In this document: piece after piece, positions 2,303 to 27,758 of the stretch
Position numbering within the stretch: the first letter of the stretch is position 1
Layout of the letters: each line of letters begins with the position of its first letter
Assembly: GCA_946498975.1 (NCBI GenBank)
Contig: CAMMQC010000019.1
Coordinates: 1-32,123 of the forward strand
Reading direction: 5' to 3'
Origin: an uncultured Mycoplasmatota bacterium
GTDB taxonomy: Bacteria; Bacillota_I; Bacilli_A; RF39; UBA660
DNA: 32,123 nt
The notes under the pieces: model-generated
The model's database searches: none
The model's input: the letters and a program-made list of their open reading frames with translations, nothing else
What the model was told of the DNA's origin: nothing
Translations under genes and position numbers: made by a program

Positions 2303-2346
2303 TACCAAACACCTCTCATTAAATATATTTATTTATACTATAACAT

Positions 2347-2697
2347 TTACTTTAACTCCATACAATCAAAATTACCTCTAATAGTAGAAATAACTTCATC
2401 ACTAGCAACTACTAAAATAGATTTATCTTGGGGAAGAGATTCAATAAAATTGATTATCTCTTCTTTATTTTTACTATCTAAACTATGAGTTCTCTCAACT
2501 ATTAATTTATCTCCTACAAGAATAAGAGCACTTCCAAAATCTTTTAACTTAAATGATGTATAACACTTATCAAAGTTTATTGCATTATTTCTTAATTTTA
2601 ACTTCTTACCAAACTCTACTCCTTCTTCTGATAAAGGAGGATTTAGATTACCACTAGTATCTTTATCTTCTCTAAAACTCTTAACTACATAAAGCAT
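2347..2697 (-). CDS. degenerate histidine phosphatase (phosphoglycerate mutase)-like protein
   Basis: A 116-residue protein whose start overlaps the previous stop as TAATG, implying translational coupling. The pattern LYVVKSFRED...NPPLSEEGVEFGKKL, then DKCYTSF and later SILVVASDEVI follows the histidine phosphatase order (LYLVRHGET, LT..G..QA..L, D.VYSS, the late strand with the second His). The catalytic RHG is replaced by KSF and the second His position reads AS, so the phosphoryl-accepting His is absent. It is also shorter than usual (about 180-220 residues). I infer a catalytically dead paralogue, perhaps a binding or regulatory protein. The fold assignment comes from motif order only. 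Confidence 0.65.
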   Translation of the reverse strand: MLYVVKSFREDKDTSGNLNPPLSEEGVEFGKKLKLRNNAINFDKCYTSFKLKDFGSALILVGDKLIVERTHSLDSKNKEEIINFIESLPQDKSILVVASDEVISTIRGNFDCMELK

Positions 2698-3989
2698 TAT
2701 TTATAAAATTCTCTTTCCAAATCTTTATTATATTTTAAGAAATAAGTACGATAATCTTTATTATTACTACCAAGTTCTTTTGATGAAGATGCACCACCTA
2801 CTAAATAACCATCATCAGTAACTATTACATCACTAAAATAATCAACTCCAGAACCATTCTCTTTATTATTAGCTTTTTTCTCTAAATCAGTATTATATTT
2901 AACAATAATACCACGATAATCTAAATAATTATATGTATCTGTAGACTTTTCTTCATCTTTCTTATAAGTATGACCAACTACTATTAAATCATCTCCATCA
3001 GAAACTATTTTATTAAATCTTGCTGCATTATTTCTACTAAAAGTAACTTCATCTAACACATTACCATCACTATCATACTTAAGAATTAATCCTTCAGTAA
3101 CTTTATCTTCATCTTTAGCATCAATATTAATAGTCTTAGAGCCTGCAACAAAGAATTCATCTCCAACTTTTACAATAGAACTAAAACCAACAGTATCTGT
3201 ATATTCATAAGTCTTAACAAATACTTGTTCACCATCTAATGTATATTTAGCAATCATACCATACCTAGTAGCATCTTTACCAACCAAATAAAGGTAATCT
3301 CCATCTATAACAGCATCATTAAATATAGCAGACTTACTTCCTCCATAATTAGCTCTCCACTGTTCCTTTAAATCAAAGTCATACTTAATTATTAAAGCAC
3401 CACCATCTGGATCATTACCAATAACCATATTCTGTAAGATACTTTGCCCTACTACAATAAATCCATCATCTACAAGTAATACTTTATTAAAAGTAGTATC
3501 TCCTGCTATTTGTACACTCTTAGTATCAACTTGCTTACCATTTTTATCATATAAAACAATTAGCCCATCAGTAGCATTATCTTCTACTTGTTGTTCATCA
3601 TATTGTGCACCACCTACTGCAATATAACCATCTTTATACTCTATAACATCACTAAAATATGATGAATAACCCTTAGTATAAGCACTTTCAAACTCTACTT
3701 CAAAATCACTATTATATTTAGAAAACTTAGCTTTATTATAATCTTTCTGATAAGAATTAAACTCACTATTTTTAAAGTCACTATTACCAACGACTAAATA
3801 ACCATCATCTATTTCTTTAAAGCTATTTAAAGTATCAGTATAAACAACAGACTTTGTTCTATTATAATAAGAAAGACCAATATAACAGGCTTCTATAACT
3901 ATAATAGCAATACATAAGACTATAATTACTCTTAACCATTTAACTAATCTTTTTTGTTCTACTTTTAATTCCTTCTTATTCTTCTTCAT
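2697..3989 (-). CDS. membrane-anchored seven-blade beta-propeller protein
   Basis: A 430-residue protein. The start at 3989 (MKKNKKELK) is chosen over an upstream ATG because GGAGG lies 7 bases before it; it overlaps the end of tyrS by 14 bases. A basic N-terminus is followed by one membrane helix (about 19-40), giving a large outside domain. That domain contains seven repeats built on a strand pair of the type FSDVIEYKDGYIAVGG, at about residues 54, 110, 166, 221, 268, 324 and 383, spaced 45-60 residues, each followed by a strand with YD or KY. This is a clear propeller pattern with a full set of blades. No catalytic motif or sorting signal is visible. Role unknown; ligand or glycan binding at the surface is a guess. 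Confidence 0.8.
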   Translation of the reverse strand: MKKNKKELKVEQKRLVKWLRVIIVLCIAIIVIEACYIGLSYYNRTKSVVYTDTLNSFKEIDDGYLVVGNSDFKNSEFNSYQKDYNKAKFSKYNSDFEVEFESAYTKGYSSYFSDVIEYKDGYIAVGGAQYDEQQVEDNATDGLIVLYDKNGKQVDTKSVQIAGDTTFNKVLLVDDGFIVVGQSILQNMVIGNDPDGGALIIKYDFDLKEQWRANYGGSKSAIFNDAVIDGDYLYLVGKDATRYGMIAKYTLDGEQVFVKTYEYTDTVGFSSIVKVGDEFFVAGSKTINIDAKDEDKVTEGLILKYDSDGNVLDEVTFSRNNAARFNKIVSDGDDLIVVGHTYKKDEEKSTDTYNYLDYRGIIVKYNTDLEKKANNKENGSGVDYFSDVIVTDDGYLVGGASSSKELGSNNKDYRTYFLKYNKDLEREFYK

Positions 3990-5235
3990 CTTTCCCTCCA
4001 AAACATGCAATAAAGTATTTCTTCTTACCACGTCTTACTACTACATATTTATTATCTATAGCAATATCTTTATTAATAGTAAACTCTAAGTCATTAATCT
4101 TCTCTCCATTAATACTAATACTATTATTATTAACAAACTCACGAGACTCTCTTTTACTACTACAGATATTATATTCTACAAGAAAGTCTACTATATTCAT
4201 ATCTTTATCTATAATAAGTTTATCTAACCCTTTAAAAGCCATTTCTATCTCTTGACTAGTAAGATTCTTAATATTACCACTAAATAATGCTTCACTAATA
4301 TTTAAAGCCTCGTTATAAGCATCTTCCCCATGTATAAAAGTAATAACTTCTCTTGCTAATGCTTTATGAGCAATACGTCTTTCAGGTGCTTCCATCTGTT
4401 CTTTTTCTATTTTCTCTATTTCTTCTTTACTTAAGAAGGTTAAGAATTTCAAATAATCTATTACTTTAGTATCTTCTGCATTTATTAAGAATTGATACAT
4501 CTCATAAGGAGTAGTCTTCTCTCTATCTAACCAAATCGCTCCTCCTTCACTCTTACCAAACTTAGTACCATCCGCTTTAGTTAAAAGAGGCATTGTAAAA
4601 GCATACACTTCTTTACCAGTCTTTTTACGAATCAAATCAATACCTGCAGTAATATTACCCCATTGATCTTGTCCAGCGACTTGTAATGTACAATCAAACT
4701 CACTATTAAGATGTAAATAGTCTAAAGCTTGTAATATCATATAAGAAAACTCTGCATAAGTAATACCAGAATCAAGTCTTCTTCTTACAATGTCTTTATC
4801 AAGCATATAGTTGATATTAAAGTACTTACCATAATCTCTTAAGAAATCTATTACATTAATATCTTTAATCCAATCAAAGTTATTAACTACTCTAAAGTCA
4901 TTATCTCCTCTTGCAAATATCTTTTCCGCTTGTTCTTTTAAGCAAAGGAAATTATGATTTAACTCTTCTTTACTTATCATAGGTCTTTCACTAGTAGGAC
5001 GAGGGTCACCAATAAGACCAGTCGCACCTCCTACTAATAAAATTGGATGATGTCCTGCTTCTTTCAAACGTCTTGCAATTAAGAACGATGAAAAATGTCC
5101 AATATGTAAACTATCAGCAGTTGGATCAGTTCCAATATAAAAGGTAAGACCTCCTTTATTTAGTTTATCAACAAGTTCAGGACTAGATATATCTTTAATT
5201 AGTCCTCTCCATTTCAATTCTTCAAACAATGTCAT
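3976..5235 (-). CDS. tyrS: tyrosyl-tRNA synthetase
   Basis: A 419-residue class I aminoacyl-tRNA synthetase that charges tRNA-Tyr in the cytosol. HIGH is at residues 44-47 and the KMSKS motif appears as KFGKS at 225-229; GLIGDP, the tyrosine-binding YAEFSYMILQALDY (about 160-173) and QVAGQDQWGNI are all in place. A C-terminal S4-like RNA-binding domain covers about 345-410. Length is normal for the bacterial TyrRS1 group. It starts with an ATGA overlap on the preceding gene, with GGAGGG 5 bases upstream. It is the fourth gene behind the tyrosine T-box at 6605-6806, so transcription should rise when uncharged tRNA-Tyr accumulates. Confidence 0.98.
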   Translation of the reverse strand: MTLFEELKWRGLIKDISSPELVDKLNKGGLTFYIGTDPTADSLHIGHFSSFLIARRLKEAGHHPILLVGGATGLIGDPRPTSERPMISKEELNHNFLCLKEQAEKIFARGDNDFRVVNNFDWIKDINVIDFLRDYGKYFNINYMLDKDIVRRRLDSGITYAEFSYMILQALDYLHLNSEFDCTLQVAGQDQWGNITAGIDLIRKKTGKEVYAFTMPLLTKADGTKFGKSEGGAIWLDREKTTPYEMYQFLINAEDTKVIDYLKFLTFLSKEEIEKIEKEQMEAPERRIAHKALAREVITFIHGEDAYNEALNISEALFSGNIKNLTSQEIEMAFKGLDKLIIDKDMNIVDFLVEYNICSSKRESREFVNNNSISINGEKINDLEFTINKDIAIDNKYVVVRRGKKKYFIACFGGKDEEE

Positions 5236-5666
5236 TTTAACCCTCCTAATTTCTTAACATGATTATTATCTTTAATTCTAGTATCACCAAAATAATCAAA
5301 ATAAATTTCTTCCCCACTACAATCAGGCCTATACATTAATCCCCAATGTAAAACACCAAATCCTTCACCAAATACTTGCCATAACTTATCTTCTTCATAA
5401 TCTTTTTCATCATAAAAACCTAAGTTCCCTTCAATATAATTAATAAAGTCTTCTTTAGATAAATTAAAGTCTTTAGTAACCTTATCAATTTCTCTATCAA
5501 TTTCTTCCTTATAGGCATCATAAAATTCTCCTTCTTCTACTTTTAAAGATTCAAACTCATCTTTTTTATCTAAAAGAAGAAGAGCAAGTAAATTACTAGG
5601 ATGATTTCTTTCTCCTGTATCATGATAATTTTCTAATTCTTCATTATAAAACTCTATTAATGTCAT
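5232..5666 (-). CDS. small acidic protein, tandem paralogue 2, unknown function
   Basis: A 144-residue acidic soluble protein that I do not recognise. It is paralogous to its upstream neighbour: both start M(T/S)L.E.Y.EE, share a segment with LLALLLLDKK versus LAMLLLEKK (about residue 27-36), share W(Q)(V/I)(F/Y)G (about 92-103), and end with K(K/R)(L/I)GGLK. It contains no membrane helix, signal peptide or metal-binding cluster. The ATG at 5666 has GGAGG upstream, inside the preceding gene. The codons for its own C-terminal GGLK contain the ribosome binding site of tyrS, and its TGA overlaps the tyrS ATG. Its position between the tyrosine T-box and tyrS is the only hint at its role. Confidence 0.8.
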   Translation of the reverse strand: MTLIEFYNEELENYHDTGERNHPSNLLALLLLDKKDEFESLKVEEGEFYDAYKEEIDREIDKVTKDFNLSKEDFINYIEGNLGFYDEKDYEEDKLWQVFGEGFGVLHWGLMYRPDCSGEEIYFDYFGDTRIKDNNHVKKLGGLK

Positions 5667-6045
5667 TTTTTAAACCTCCAATTCTTTTTACTTTATTACT
5701 ACTTTCAAATTTACCATAACAATATTGATAAACATCTTCCCCATTCATAAAAGACATCTGAGTAATTCCATCAAATAATACTTCTATTGCCCCGCCATAA
5801 ATCTGCCAAAATTCATCAGCATCTTTTGGAGAGTCTAAATCAAAATCTTCTTCTACTTTAACAACATCATCTTTTATTTCATCCTCATAATCACGACAAA
5901 AAGTTTCAATATTTACATCAGTAGGAAAAAAATACTTTTTCTTTTCTAACAGTAACATTGCTAAAACTTGACTAGGTTCAACTTGTAATTTACCAGTTTT
6001 TCTATACTGATTAACTTCTTCACTATATAATTCACTTAAACTCAT
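5644..6045 (-). CDS. small acidic protein, tandem paralogue 1, unknown function
   Basis: A 133-residue acidic soluble protein, paralogue of the next gene. The start at 6045 has an AGGAAAGTGG-type binding site partly overlapping the CYTH stop. The C-terminus carries seven extra residues (NDINRVL) after the shared GGLK because the A-run before the next start codon is six long here and four long in the second copy; the frame therefore misses the ATGA stop seen in the sister gene and overlaps the next gene by 23 bases. Function unknown. Tandem duplication followed by divergence is the inferred history. Confidence 0.78.
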   Translation of the reverse strand: MSLSELYSEEVNQYRKTGKLQVEPSQVLAMLLLEKKKYFFPTDVNIETFCRDYEDEIKDDVVKVEEDFDLDSPKDADEFWQIYGGAIEVLFDGITQMSFMNGEDVYQYCYGKFESSNKVKRIGGLKNDINRVL

Positions 6046-6057
6046 ACTACCACTTTC

Positions 6058-6588
6058 CTAAAACTTTAATTCGTCTATCATTTTTAAATCATGACCATAC
6101 TTTTTATAGATACTATCAACATCTAAAGTAGTTATCTCATTTTCATTATAGCCTAATTTCTTAACTACTGTCATTACTTCTTCTTCACTTTTGCCTTCTA
6201 TTTCTACATAAGTAGGTATCAAAGGCCAAGTATCAATATCTATCTCTACTCCATCAAGATTATATCTAATACGTTTATTTTCTTGATAACTTCTAGCCTT
6301 ATATCCTAACTCATTTAAAATATAATTACACTTATCAAAGTCTGATACAATTATTTCTATTTCCTTAGTACCATCTATCAAAGGACTAACAATATTTTTA
6401 ATAGTAAGAGTACTTTCATTGCCATTAGTCCTAAGTCTAATCCACTTTCCTTTAACAACAGGATTAAAATCATAAACATAACGTTTCTGAAAAAAATCTC
6501 CTACCTTTTCAGCCCCTAGTTTCTCTAACATTTTAATGAAAGAATCTTTATCAATTTCTAAAATCCTAACTTCATACTCTGTATTCAT
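6058..6588 (-). CDS. CYTH-domain protein (class IV adenylate cyclase / CyaB-like)
   Basis: A 176-residue protein. An open frame extends further upstream into the T-box terminator, but GGAGG at 6599-6595 fixes the start at the ATG at 6588. The N-terminal CYTH signature ExExR is E4, E6, R8, followed by KWIRLRTNG, TLTIKN, KEIEI, and the paired acidic strands GVEIDIDTWP and TYVEIEG, which line the triphosphate and metal tunnel in this superfamily. C-terminal SIYKKYGHD resembles CyaB-like members. Known CYTH proteins act as adenylate cyclase, thiamine triphosphatase or inorganic triphosphatase; which one applies here cannot be told from sequence. It is the first gene of the tyrosine T-box operon. 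Confidence 0.88.
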   Translation of the reverse strand: MNTEYEVRILEIDKDSFIKMLEKLGAEKVGDFFQKRYVYDFNPVVKGKWIRLRTNGNESTLTIKNIVSPLIDGTKEIEIIVSDFDKCNYILNELGYKARSYQENKRIRYNLDGVEIDIDTWPLIPTYVEIEGKSEEEVMTVVKKLGYNENEITTLDVDSIYKKYGHDLKMIDELKF

Positions 6589-13215: not shown

Positions 13216-14721
13216 TTAAATAGACAATCTATATGGATTTTCACTACTACCATCACCACTTGTTATTTTTATATTACTGTTTAAATAAAGTGTTGGATAA
13301 ACATAATTTGTCCCATCAGCACCTCCAAAAGTAATATTACCATTACCCTGCAAAACATAAATATCTCTTGAAGTAATTAAGCGGTGAATAATTGTATACT
13401 TTCCAACGTTTCTTTCATATAACCAACTTTTTGATCCTTCAGATGCATTACAACTCATTACCGTATTATAACAAGTATCACTAACACCATTTGCAAAAGT
13501 ATAGGTATAATCACTTATATAAATTAAGCCTATTTCTCCTAACCATGATAAAGGCCTTGTATTAGTAACTCTATCTCCACGTTCTAAAATATAATCATCT
13601 TCTCCTGTATTACTAGTAGTACTATTATGTTTACCACCTAAATACCAAACCACTTTACTAGTCATACTTTTCGCTTCTTGATTTAAACCATTTTCACCAA
13701 AATCACAACTAACAGTTCCATTATTGTGTCCACTATAACACGTTCCACTACCTCTATTATAGTATAAACTTCCACCAACAGATTCATTCTCATAACCTCC
13801 GTTTAGAAGCTTCATAAGTCTAGCATCTGACCAATCGTTTTTACCAAAATCATCTTCTGCACCAGTTGCCATGTTTTTATTATCCCAAGAATATCTTCCT
13901 ATAGATTCATTTCTTATTATTTTAATTCTATTTTCCGTCTCTCCTTTAGCATTAACTACAGGAAATACACCAATTATTCTCCATACTTCATCATTAAATA
14001 TAACATAGTTATTAGGATTGTTTCCTATATAACGATAATCAGTTAAAGCTTCTGTTTGATAAGTCTCACTATGATTAAACACATACATTTCCTTCTGTTC
14101 TTCTATACTACTACTATTATAATCATTATTACTAGGATCGTTCGCTTTATCTATTAAAACATCAATTCCTTCTGGTTTATCTTGTGAAACTTCTACTCTT
14201 AACTTGCCACTAAATACTTGTCCAGAGTAATTTCCATCTACTTCATCTGTTATCCATAGATTTAAACTATATTCATTTGTGCTTTTTCCTTCTATGGTTC
14301 CAGAATCTAATATTCTATTAGGGTTACTTCCTATACTGGTAAGTAAATAAGCTCCACTATCACTACCATTCTTAACTAGATTATACTTTAAATACTTATC
14401 ATCTATTCTAGTATCAGTGTCACTTATAGTATTATCATCTAAATAAATTGTATAATCTACCGCTTTACTACCATTATTTATTAGTTTAAAAGTTGAACCT
14501 TCTAAAGACATACCTTCACTATCACTTATACCTACTGCATTATCTAAACTTATCCCTTCACTTGTCTCATCTAGTACTAGTTCTAATTCTCCTACTTTTA
14601 CTATCTGGTCTGCTCCATTTAACTCTGTAATAAAATAAGCATAACTTATTAGTATCGCAAGTATTAATACTATAAATATACTTATGATTATTACTGTCGC
14701 TTTCTTATTTTTCTTCTCCAT
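13216..14721 (-). CDS. membrane-anchored surface protein with TasA/camelysin-like domain
   Basis: A 501-residue protein. Start at 14721 (MEKKNKK) is chosen because AAGGAG precedes it by 10 bases; a longer frame exists. One N-terminal membrane helix (about 8-30, ending SYAYF) is followed by a TasA/camelysin-like beta-domain to about 190 (VKVGELELVLDE, TFKLINNGSKAVDYTIYLDD, then YSLNLWI and FSGKLRVEVSQ). The large second domain (about 220-501) has six cysteines, many Asn, Gly and Tyr residues, VWRIIGVF, and ends TSGDGSSENPYRLSI. The same architecture and ending occur in the protein at 30703. No LPxTG-type signal. Proposed: secreted, matrix or surface display protein. A leader ORF with a G8 tract lies upstream. 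Confidence 0.82.
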   Translation of the reverse strand: MEKKNKKATVIIISIFIVLILAILISYAYFITELNGADQIVKVGELELVLDETSEGISLDNAVGISDSEGMSLEGSTFKLINNGSKAVDYTIYLDDNTISDTDTRIDDKYLKYNLVKNGSDSGAYLLTSIGSNPNRILDSGTIEGKSTNEYSLNLWITDEVDGNYSGQVFSGKLRVEVSQDKPEGIDVLIDKANDPSNNDYNSSSIEEQKEMYVFNHSETYQTEALTDYRYIGNNPNNYVIFNDEVWRIIGVFPVVNAKGETENRIKIIRNESIGRYSWDNKNMATGAEDDFGKNDWSDARLMKLLNGGYENESVGGSLYYNRGSGTCYSGHNNGTVSCDFGENGLNQEAKSMTSKVVWYLGGKHNSTTSNTGEDDYILERGDRVTNTRPLSWLGEIGLIYISDYTYTFANGVSDTCYNTVMSCNASEGSKSWLYERNVGKYTIIHRLITSRDIYVLQGNGNITFGGADGTNYVYPTLYLNSNIKITSGDGSSENPYRLSI

Positions 14722-14772
14722 AAATCTCTTACTCCTTCCATTATTACACACAAAAAAGAATAAAATAATTCT

Positions 14773-14892
14773 CTATTCTATTCTTCTTACACTATGAAAG
14801 AAAGTAACTAAATTACTATTAAATTTACCTTTTATGCTTAAGGATAAAAACTGCCCCCCCCAGGTAACATATTGTAAACATAGTTTTCTCAT
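14773..14892 (-). CDS. 39-residue leader ORF containing a G8 tract
   Basis: The ORF begins MRKLCLQYVTW, with GAGAAGG 9 bases before the ATG at 14892 and a promoter further upstream; it ends 51 bases before the surface-protein start. Its codons 11-13 lie in the G8 run (14861-14854), so gain or loss of one G would end the frame early: nine G gives a stop after about 22 codons, seven after about 17. It has no recognised homology. It may be a true leader peptide controlling the next gene, or a chance frame. Confidence 0.45.
   Translation of the reverse strand: MRKLCLQYVTWGGQFLSLSIKGKFNSNLVTFFHSVRRIE
14854..14861 (-). repeat. homopolymer tract (eight G on minus strand)
   Basis: Eight consecutive C on the plus strand in an otherwise very A+T-rich intergenic region, within CTG-G6-CAG context, 133 bases upstream of the surface-protein start. 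Such tracts are common sites of slipped-strand length change. Confidence 0.9.
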
Positions 14893-14926
14893 ATTTTTTT
14901 ACCTTCTCTCAATTCTTATTATCTAT

Positions 14927-14955
14927 ATATTAACATATTTTTTATTAGTTAACAA
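14927..14955 (-). promoter_or_regulatory. promoter of leader ORF and surface-protein gene
   Basis: TTGTTA (14955-14950), 17-base spacer ending in ATGT, TAATAT (14932-14927); the TG one base before the -10 box gives an extended -10. It overlaps the intergenic start just after the VanY stop. Confidence 0.55.
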
Positions 14956-14958
14956 TTA

Positions 14959-16092
14959 CTAATCATCTAAAAACATAACATAATACTCATCATAAGTAAT
15001 ATTATTTTCTTTTATATATTTAGCAATCTTTTTACCTACATATCTATAATGCCAAGCTTCACATTTATAACCTGTAATATCTTCTTTACTTCTAGGATAT
15101 CTTAATATAAATCCATACTTATAAGCATTATCCATCATCCAAGTATATTCATCACTTTCCACAAAAGTATTAACAGATTTACTAGCAATATCTAAACTCA
15201 TCGCTGTTTGATGTTCAGAAAAACCAGGTTTCGCTACATAATTATCAACATAATTTTGTCCATAAAGCTCTAAATATGTATTAGTAATCTCTTCTTGATC
15301 TTCATAACTTCTATAACCAGAACTAACCATTAACTCAAGTCCTTCTTTACTAGCATCCTCTGCCATATCATAAAATGCTTTCGCAACATTACGTTCTATC
15401 TCAATCTCTCCATCCGCTTTTACATACTCTTCATCAATAGTAACTAAATCATCAGGAACATATTTACTACTAAGCTGTCTATGTTTATTTACTAACACAT
15501 AATCATCAAATTTATCTATAACTAAAGGATCAACATAATCTTCTTTATCAAAATCCATATTTACATATAAAACAGTAGTCTCTGCATCATCATTTTCCTT
15601 TTCTTTATAAGCAACATATCTATCTAAATTATCAAGTTTAGCATAATCAACAGATAAAAACTCTTCTATATATTTAACCTTATCGCGTTTTACAAAGTCA
15701 CTAACAGACTCATCATCACCTTTAGAAATAATTAAATTAACTTCATCAACACTATAACCTTTATTTAATAATTTATTTATATTACTAATTAAATGCTCTT
15801 GATTTTCATAATCTATCTTTGCATAATTATCAAGATTATCTTCTTTATAATCATCACTACTAAACGCTGCATTTAAAGTCTTATTCTCGCCTATATCCAT
15901 AACATAAGAATATTTAAACTTAAAGATTATATTCTTCGCCGCTTCCTCACTATAACCTAAATACTTAAGCTCTCCTATTCTATTAAAATAAAATACTAAA
16001 AGAATTACTATAACTAAAAGGATTACTCCAATTATCATCAAAGGTTTCTTAGCATTACTTTTCAACTTTAATTTAACTCTTTTTTGTGGCAT
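14959..16092 (-). CDS. VanY-type D-alanyl-D-alanine carboxypeptidase (peptidase M15B)
   Basis: A 377-residue membrane-anchored protein. A basic N-terminus and one membrane helix (about 17-36) place the rest outside. The helical region 40-160 includes two segments with the same motif (LKYLGYSEEAAKNII and LNKGYSVDEVNLII). The C-terminal M15B domain (about 215-365) has VSSGYRSYEDQ, the zinc motif SEHQTAMSLD (S292, H294, D301) and EAWHYRYVG with E345 and H348. The usual Gly in SxHxxGxAxD is Ala here. Expected role: removal of the terminal D-Ala of peptidoglycan stem peptides. No vanS/vanR or other resistance genes are nearby, so a housekeeping wall role is more likely than glycopeptide resistance. 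Confidence 0.93.
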   Translation of the reverse strand: MPQKRVKLKLKSNAKKPLMIIGVILLVIVILLVFYFNRIGELKYLGYSEEAAKNIIFKFKYSYVMDIGENKTLNAAFSSDDYKEDNLDNYAKIDYENQEHLISNINKLLNKGYSVDEVNLIISKGDDESVSDFVKRDKVKYIEEFLSVDYAKLDNLDRYVAYKEKENDDAETTVLYVNMDFDKEDYVDPLVIDKFDDYVLVNKHRQLSSKYVPDDLVTIDEEYVKADGEIEIERNVAKAFYDMAEDASKEGLELMVSSGYRSYEDQEEITNTYLELYGQNYVDNYVAKPGFSEHQTAMSLDIASKSVNTFVESDEYTWMMDNAYKYGFILRYPRSKEDITGYKCEAWHYRYVGKKIAKYIKENNITYDEYYVMFLDD

Positions 16093-26261: not shown

Positions 26262-27758
26262 ATGAAAAAAATATTATTATTCTTAACTATATGTTTTATT
26301 TATTTAATAAGTTCAACAACAATCGTAAATGCAAGCACTGATTCTTTTTATGAAGCAGAGTATATTGATAATATCTATATGGTTAGATATGACAAAAGTA
26401 CAAAAACTAAATATTATCAAAAAGCAAGAACTTATCGAAGAACAAGTGATGGTAAACTAGCTTACTGTCTACAACCTTTCACTAAGTTTAATCCAAGCGA
26501 TAACAATTATGAAACAGTAGGATCACTTCCAAATATTAGTGAAGAAACTTTAACTAGAATAAATGATATTATTGGTTTTGGTTACGGTTATGTAGGTCAC
26601 ACTAATGATTTAAAATGGTATGCTATAACTCAACTAATGATTTGGCAAACAGTTGAACCAGATAGTGAATTTTATTTTACTGACACTCTAAATGGAAATA
26701 GAATTAATATATACAACTCAGAAATACTAACTATTAATAATCTAATAAATAATAGTTACATAATGCCAAGTTTCAATAATAAAACATTCTATGGAATAGT
26801 AGGAAAACCTTTAACAATAACAGATACAAATAATGTTTTTGGTTTCTATACAAATGGTAGTTCAGATTCTATTAAAAATAATAATAGTTTAACTATAACC
26901 AAAAATAAACAAGGATGTTATGAAGAAACTTTCTATAGGACATATAATGCTAACAATGAACCAGTTTTATTCTATTACAATCCAAATAGTCAACATTTAG
27001 CAACTATAGGAAAACCTAATAATAGAGAAGCTAAAGTAAGATACTGTTTTAATGAATTAAACCTAAAAATAAAAAAAGTTGATAAAGATACAGGAACAAC
27101 AGAAAGTATTGGAGAAGCATCTCTAAAGGATACAGTCTTCACTCTATATAATAAAAATATGGAAAAAATAACAGATTTAACATTAGATGAAAATATGGAA
27201 GCTAAAATAAATAGTACTGATTTTAACTTAGATTATGGTACTTATTATCTTAAAGAAACACAAACAGGAACAGGTTATCTACCTAATGACAAAGTATATG
27301 AAATAAACTTTACAGAAAATAATCCTACTATAGATTTAACTATTGAAAATAAAGTTATAGAAAAAGAAGTAACTATTAAGAAATTGTTTGGTGATGGAAA
27401 ACTTATGCAAACAGAATCTAATATTACTTTTGAAATCTATGATAAAGATAAAAATCTAGTTAAAAGTATAACAACAGACCAAAATGGAATAGCAAAGATA
27501 ACTCTACCTTATGGTCATTACAAAATAGTACAAGTTAATACTACTGAAGGATATACAAAGATTAAACCTTTTGAAATATTTATAAGTGATATAGATAAAG
27601 ACTACTATTACACAATAAATGACTATAAAGAAAAAGAAGAAGTACCGAAAGAAACTATATCAATAGAAGTACCAAACACAAGTACTGAAGATAACAACTA
27701 CCACTTATTAAGTTTAATATTACCTACATATTTAATTGTTAAGAAAAAGTTTAGTTAG
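26262..27758 (+). CDS. thioester-domain adhesin with two SpaA/Cna-B stalk domains and VPNTS sorting signal
   Basis: A 498-residue secreted protein. Start MKKILLFLTICF at 26262 with AGGAGG; signal peptide to about residue 24 (VNA-S). The thioester domain (about 30-262) has Cys69 in LAYCLQ and Gln124 in AITQLMIWQ, the two residues that form an internal Cys-Gln thioester in such adhesins, and two more cysteines (219, 262). SpaA-like domain 1 (about 268-363) has KKVDKDTG and YLKETQ with E332, as needed for a Lys-Asn/Asp isopeptide; domain 2 (about 369-455) has Gln424 where that Glu is expected. The C-terminus is VPNTS (470-474), a hydrophobic stretch and KKKFS. It is expected to be wall-anchored by the next gene's sortase and to bind host or neighbour amines covalently. 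Confidence 0.92.
   Translation: MKKILLFLTICFIYLISSTTIVNASTDSFYEAEYIDNIYMVRYDKSTKTKYYQKARTYRRTSDGKLAYCLQPFTKFNPSDNNYETVGSLPNISEETLTRINDIIGFGYGYVGHTNDLKWYAITQLMIWQTVEPDSEFYFTDTLNGNRINIYNSEILTINNLINNSYIMPSFNNKTFYGIVGKPLTITDTNNVFGFYTNGSSDSIKNNNSLTITKNKQGCYEETFYRTYNANNEPVLFYYNPNSQHLATIGKPNNREAKVRYCFNELNLKIKKVDKDTGTTESIGEASLKDTVFTLYNKNMEKITDLTLDENMEAKINSTDFNLDYGTYYLKETQTGTGYLPNDKVYEINFTENNPTIDLTIENKVIEKEVTIKKLFGDGKLMQTESNITFEIYDKDKNLVKSITTDQNGIAKITLPYGHYKIVQVNTTEGYTKIKPFEIFISDIDKDYYYTINDYKEKEEVPKETISIEVPNTSTEDNNYHLLSLILPTYLIVKKKFS

Follow-up and report, generated by a model that had tools for sequence, protein, structure and literature searches.

A G tract in a translated leader as a putative phase-variable switch ahead of surface-protein genes in uncultured Bacilli

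The leader module at the window locus

What does a run of eight G do inside a short leader frame just ahead of a gene for a surface protein? The window (the whole stretch of DNA analysed here, 32,123 nucleotides) carries such a run on its minus strand, at 14854-14861 by base-run count. A sequence-only reading had assigned it to a leader ORF of 39 codons whose end lies 51 bases ahead of the surface-protein start and had proposed that it acts as a phase-variation switch through the position of the leader's stop codon. The coordinates are confirmed. The leader ORF (14773-14892, minus strand; 39 aa, MRKLCLQYVTWGGQFLSLSIKGKFNSNLVTFFHSVRRIE) begins at the ATG at 14892 and ends at a TAG at 14775-14773, and 51 bases (14722-14772) separate this stop from the surface-gene ATG at 14721. 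The good binding site ascribed to the leader is equally present, as GAAGG at 14906-14902 (minus strand); the commonest leader ribosome-binding site in the family is a longer form, AAAGAAGG, found in 105 of the 197 called leaders described below. Just before the G tract, at 14864-14880 on the same strand, lies GTTTACAATATGTTAC, which is seen in the other copies too; it is strongly conserved without evident reason, and TTAAC-like motifs occupy the same place in other genera.

Does the leader have a promoter of its own, as that reading also held? A plain consensus promoter scan of the window gave no match on the minus strand, so this part of the claim stands only in another form: a promoter-like element, TTGTTA-17-TGTTAATAT, with an extended -10 of TG-T-TAATAT (14927-14955, minus strand), fits the consensus of an element, TTG-17-TGnTAATAT, that recurs upstream of leaders across the module copies. 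At least 14 positions of the 22-nt promoter consensus were matched in 133 of 193 copies, as against 47 of 193 after one shuffle per copy, a comparison in which the consensus was derived from the very copies scored; the window element scores 16. The upstream neighbour, on the same strand (14959-16092), encodes a VanY-type D-Ala-D-Ala carboxypeptidase (PF02557, E 3.9e-36), and its stop lies just ahead of the promoter-like element.

Two hairpins follow the tract, both found by folding the minus strand. A small one, AGTAA-TTTAG-TTACT (14803-14817; helix 1 of the alignment below), lies between the tract and a terminator-like hairpin of 15 pairs and -11.3 kcal/mol (14753-14788), whose 3' arm merges into a U-tract. 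In this second hairpin, the leader's TAG lies across the top of the 5' arm. The downstream gene (13216-14721, minus strand), which is the regulated gene in the model proposed here, encodes a 501-aa protein with a hydrophobic N-terminus (SYAYFITELNG) that is probably exported. Its likely start is the ATG at 14721, behind GGAAGGAG; a GTG at 14751, overlapping the terminator, is the less likely candidate. The protein, scanned from that GTG and thus ten residues longer, matched no Pfam family at E 0.001, and no NCBIfam family above cut-off.

Copies of the module and the genes behind them

Is this arrangement peculiar to one locus? With a 311-base region of the window as query, further copies were found in the window's own genome, and a 17-base leader motif, allowing at most one mismatch, marked seven module copies there. 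Each has a terminator-like hairpin, and their longest G runs are 4 to 10. Three copies, on contigs C19 (the window), C15 and C9, are in the open frame, and four (C17, C6, C3 and C1) are not. The genome has six G runs of at least seven, and four of them lie within module copies, so the G8 tract is more than chance. Several copies, C6 and C9 among them, have longer leaders with repeated units like QGKINRQFWGKLIRQS.

Two other G8 runs of this genome are of separate interest. The one at C15:34034-34041 was considered as a leader module and set aside: it directly follows a hairpin behind a surface gene, the 3' end of which resembles the C9 retroelement target described below. The other, at C24:16918-16925, runs into a ribosome-binding site just before a start codon and is possibly a second kind of G-tract switch.

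How widespread is the module? The sequence-only reading had suggested searching for the same leader and tract before paralogous surface genes, and many copies of this kind occur in the genomes of the genus. A first covariance model, built from the seven own-genome copies and with matches counted at E ≤ 0.01, gave 367 matches in 34 of 35 genus genomes, single genomes having between 0 and 36. It also matched 8 of 193 genomes sampled from the order, seven of them from the genus (own genome included) and one from another genus of the family. A second model, built from 101 matches, matched 8 of 291 genomes and 4 of 150 genera in a family sample, and 1 of 296 genomes, the own genome, in a class sample. 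All three samples were drawn from larger groups, and the stricter search filters lose weak matches. A strict pattern found 110 stretches in named records; among the matches listed (80 of the 110), the names were uncultured Bacilli, uncultured Tenericutes, uncultured bacterium and Candidatus Onthousia excrementipullorum, Candidatus Onthousia being a genus of Bacilli. A viral carrier was also considered and rejected: an 18-base motif from behind the tract matched six stretches of viral contigs, and the module was absent within 200 bases on each side of every one. In one related genome, two contigs (G012:C23 and G012:C47) carry arrays of modules about 2 kb apart, each ahead of a surface gene; one of the four analysed copies in the C47 array is predicted ON (defined below), and none of the four in C23.

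The analyses that follow use 220 copies from 35 genomes (140 from the genus listing, 7 own, and 40 and 33 weaker matches). Behind 194 of them, an ORF with a ribosome-binding site starts within 260 nt of the hairpin, at a median of 29.5 nt. A hydrophobic N-terminal segment is present in 192 of these 194 downstream ORFs, at a threshold that 7 of 30 window ORFs pass, the window's surface gene included, and 165 of the 194 have SYA within the first 60 residues. Judged by such sequence features, the downstream products look like exported, membrane-anchored surface proteins, with N-termini that may resemble SipW-type signals. Among the 26 copies without a callable downstream ORF, 16 had less than 300 nt of contig left and 10 had at least 300 nt; some of these 10 may be relics.

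One of the genes behind a module appears to be subject to a further source of variation. The C9 copy, predicted ON, lies ahead of a 559-aa protein with a variable repeat at its 3' end. A template repeat begins 281 bases on, all 22 mismatches between the two over 96 nt fall at template adenines, and a reverse transcriptase ORF follows, with an RVT_1 match at C9:31791-32504. In the stretch of C9 taken from position 26500 (L436), the retroelement locus spans 2309-6191, with the variable repeat at 3819-3914, the template repeat at 4100-4195, a small ORF at 4748-5107 and the reverse transcriptase ORF at 5088-6191. Going by this layout, the C9 switched protein is a likely target of a diversity-generating retroelement.

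Reading frame, hairpin and tract length

If the tract were to switch anything by shifting the frame, what would the frames behind it meet? For each copy we located the hairpin and, for all three frames, the first stop codon behind the tract. In 216 of the 220 copies, exactly two frames stop before the hairpin, at a median of 33 nt, and one reaches it; in the four exceptions, two frames reach it. The first stop of the hairpin-reaching frame in the 216 copies lies in the 5' arm in 181, in the loop in 18 and beyond the hairpin in 17. The 147 closer copies agree: between the tract and the tail, the frame of the tail peptide is open in all 147, the +1 frame in one and the +2 frame in none. The copies are related, and a fairer number than the 220 comes from 31 non-redundant tract-to-hairpin segments, of which 30 have two closed frames; over 1000 dinucleotide-keeping shuffles of the same segments, the number averaged 15.0 and never exceeded 27. 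The arrangement extends to copies from other genera that lay outside the model, in which exactly one frame reaches the hairpin in eight of nine and two frames in the ninth; in the eight, the open frame stops in the 5' arm in three and beyond the hairpin in five. The frame seems to matter more than the peptide, because the tail peptides differ between copies while the frame is kept. Both the suggestion of a switch acting through the leader's stop ahead of the main gene and the expectation that leader frame and tract would be conserved in relatives find support in this frame design. In one copy from a further genome (L464, G096:C9), the frame that passes the hairpin continues for 1530 nt; leader and surface protein might then be translated as a single polypeptide.

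The same data bear on whether the module is a repeated cassette that has been copied along with surface genes, the leader being a passenger without a regulatory role. The many copies, the roughly 2-kb arrays (G012:C23 and C47) and the copies without a callable surface gene would suit such a history. Passengers are expected to drift, however, and here the frame design and the hairpin are kept in copies with little sequence in common with the window copy, and in other genera, which makes a mere passenger highly unlikely.

How consistent are the hairpins? Every one of the 220 copies has a hairpin of at least eight pairs, and in 218 a T run of at least four stands at its 3' end. Folding z-scores were -2 or lower in 44 of 46 non-redundant hairpins, a set in which the hairpin of the window copy was mis-set. 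The hairpins are A+T-rich, with a median of -13.5 kcal/mol, and the 5' arm of the terminator occurs in the forms AGAATAG and AGAGCAG, each with a matching 3' arm. The 101 matches were also aligned with the first model, giving an alignment that leans towards that model. Paired cells make up 95.1% of it, a share that none of 500 shuffles attained and that exceeds the slid controls (38.9 to 65.3%). Within it, 91.4% of the cells of the small hairpin are paired, and changes on both sides occur in some sequences at six of six pairs of the small hairpin and at two of nine of the terminator.

Could the G tract act through such structure rather than through the frame, by pairing with the conserved CUUUCUUUC or by forming a G-rich structure? 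Among the seven own copies, some do show the G run paired with CUUUCUUUC in their minimum-free-energy folds, and the small hairpin behind the tract covaries. An action through structure predicts neither that 216 of 220 copies keep exactly one frame open as far as the hairpin nor that 197 of 220 place a ribosome-binding site and start codon before the tract, and we consider it improbable, if slightly less so than the passenger account.

Which state do the copies occupy? Of the 220 copies, 197 gave a called leader that has a ribosome-binding site and extends into the G tract; five of these calls were made by choosing between frames, and 23 copies remained uncalled. On these leaders, 40 copies are predicted ON (in the hairpin-reaching frame) and 157 OFF; the ON share of 40 in 197 is below one third, so the frames are not drawn evenly. 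OFF leaders stop at a median of 34 nt before the hairpin (13 to 60), and the 40 ON leaders stop in the 5' arm (35), in the loop (3) or beyond (2). The longest G run in the 147 closer copies is 3 to 13, with a mode of nine, as read from metagenome assemblies, in which homopolymer lengths can be wrong. Nine-G runs occur in 70 of these 147 copies and in 91 of the 197 called leaders, 9 of the 91 being ON. As there are three frames, a change of one base would bring any OFF copy to ON: loss would suffice in 112 of the 157 and gain in 46, one copy being counted in both.

Does the tract differ between close relatives? Length variation in relatives, which had been proposed as a check, is what we find in 11 of 19 near-identical pairs with different tracts. 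These pairs, which show no more than four differences to either side of the tract and are nearly all between genomes, come from 27 copies and are not independent. The 11 tract-differing pairs stand against 51 substitutions and 10 other indel events in the 19, over about 132 nt per pair. In one pair, G003:C5 (11 G, ON) and G049:C64 (9 G, OFF), 761 nt align with no mismatch and one two-base gap; the difference between 11 G and 9 G is predicted from the frames to change the state. The G049:C64 contig ends soon after the aligned stretch, and its ORF is shorter than that of G003:C5. A second pair, G049:C5 and G048:C67, differs by 17 mismatches and one three-base gap in 759 aligned nt, the tracts of nine and six G both being OFF. 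At the window locus itself, orthologues with 90 to 93% DNA identity over 1.7 to 2.2 kb have G8 in G011 (ON), G7 in G048 (OFF) and a decayed GAGGG in G020 (G020:C110); around the tract, window and G048 differ by two substitutions and no other indel over 152 nt.

All of these data are assemblies, and the tract lengths might differ through sequencing or assembly error, with the leader a fixed antiterminator or terminator. Runs ranging from 3 to 13 and near-identical pairs differing by two or three bases nevertheless exceed single-base error, and we give this explanation little credence, a touch less than we give the passenger account.

A proposed leader attenuator and its precedent

How might tract length reach the downstream gene? 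In the mechanism that we propose, slippage at the G tract would change the reading frame behind it. In one of the three frames, the ribosome would read to a stop inside the terminator hairpin, mostly in the 5' arm; by covering that arm it would block the hairpin, and RNA polymerase would enter the surface-protein gene (ON). In the two other frames, the ribosome would stop about 30 nt ahead of the hairpin, the terminator would form and the gene would be silent or low (OFF). With its stop inside a terminator-like hairpin, the open frame would bring about antitermination that depends on translation. The window copy, with its G8, is predicted ON.

A leader peptide with a terminator is the classical attenuator architecture, and in attenuators of the trp leader type the position of the ribosome on the leader decides whether the terminator forms. 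That match speaks for an amino-acid- or ligand-sensing attenuator (a trp-like leader, a T-box or a riboswitch) to which the G tract is incidental. Yet Rfam gave no match at the gathering threshold in the window (three region matches had E of 1.7 to 3.5), the leader peptides inspected hold no run of one regulatory codon, and leader peptides vary between copies while the frame is kept; sensing appears to us very unlikely, the least probable of the alternatives. The trp leader, among the translation-mediated attenuators discussed in PMC3894217, is like the module in that ribosome position decides; the difference is that in the module a mutation-prone tract would set this position, in the trp leader an amino acid.

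The nearest precedent is the pil1 locus of Streptococcus gallolyticus. A search of the literature on phase variation with leader peptides or attenuation gave one abstract describing a phase-variable leader attenuator (PMC3894217), and a search for RF39 with phase variation found no paper. As reported there (Danne et al. 2014, PMC3894217), GCAGA repeats shift the frame of the pil1 leader: in the low state a short leader stops 39 or 49 bp before the terminator, in the high state longer leaders stop just before or in it, and for biphasic isolates a distance of at least 28 nt is given. The same study reports that deleting one strand of the hairpin locked expression high, that removing the leader start locked it low and that chloramphenicol lowered the high variant; a three-stop mutant was slightly higher than low cells, not quite in line with the model (PMC3894217). 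Since the geometry of the module is the same as that of pil1, we take it to be a phase-variable leader attenuator. The leader, the tract, the frame geometry, the hairpin, the tract differences between genomes and the type of downstream gene are read directly from the sequences; slippage within a population, termination and antitermination we infer from this geometry and the pil1 precedent. We consider it very probable that the G tract works as a phase-variable switch, within a translated leader that controls a transcription attenuator.

The likeness to pil1 and pil3, as PMC3894217 describes them, lies in a repeat-bearing leader ORF, a frame-dependent stop relative to a terminator and a surface structure encoded downstream, and the stop distances of the OFF or low state are near each other (a median of 34 nt here, 39 or 49 bp in pil1). 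The hairpins are weaker here (median -13.5, window -11.3 kcal/mol) than the terminators of pil1 and pil3, given there as -18.7 and -28.2 kcal/mol. The repeat is a GCAGA pentanucleotide in pil1 and pil3 and a G run in the module copies read here; with the GCAGA unit absent, the module would share the working principle of pil1 without being a copy of that element. Pilus operons lie downstream in S. gallolyticus, whereas proteins with a hydrophobic N-terminus do here; two loci in one strain contrast with up to 36 model matches per genome across a genus, and mutants demonstrated the pil1 mechanism, whereas ours is reasoned from sequence geometry.

The contingency loci of Campylobacter, Neisseria and Haemophilus typically carry their slippage-prone repeat in the gene or its promoter. 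They resemble the module in having such a repeat, surface genes and several loci per genome; the difference is that the repeat of the module belongs to a leader of its own upstream of the gene, where its target would be transcription termination. The Discussion of PMC3894217 names such genera for simple-sequence contingency loci.

What would this mean for the genus? The logic of pil1 is known for two pilus loci of one Streptococcus; here it would recur, with another repeat, as a large family of modules in uncultured Bacilli. Such a module would be a way to switch genes without an unstable repeat inside the protein itself. From tract length one could then predict the surface proteins in the ON state, and since existing metagenomes already record these lengths, a test of the idea needs no cultured strain. 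More tentatively, and with somewhat less than even confidence, we suggest that a family of independent leader-attenuator switches governs the surface repertoire of the genus. Each would rest in the OFF state, a single G away from ON, and any one cell would then display a small random subset of many surface proteins; at one locus or more, the switched protein would also be rewritten by a diversity-generating retroelement. The link at C9 to a retroelement-diversified protein would join two systems of variation on one gene, which, if true, would there be varied in two layers.
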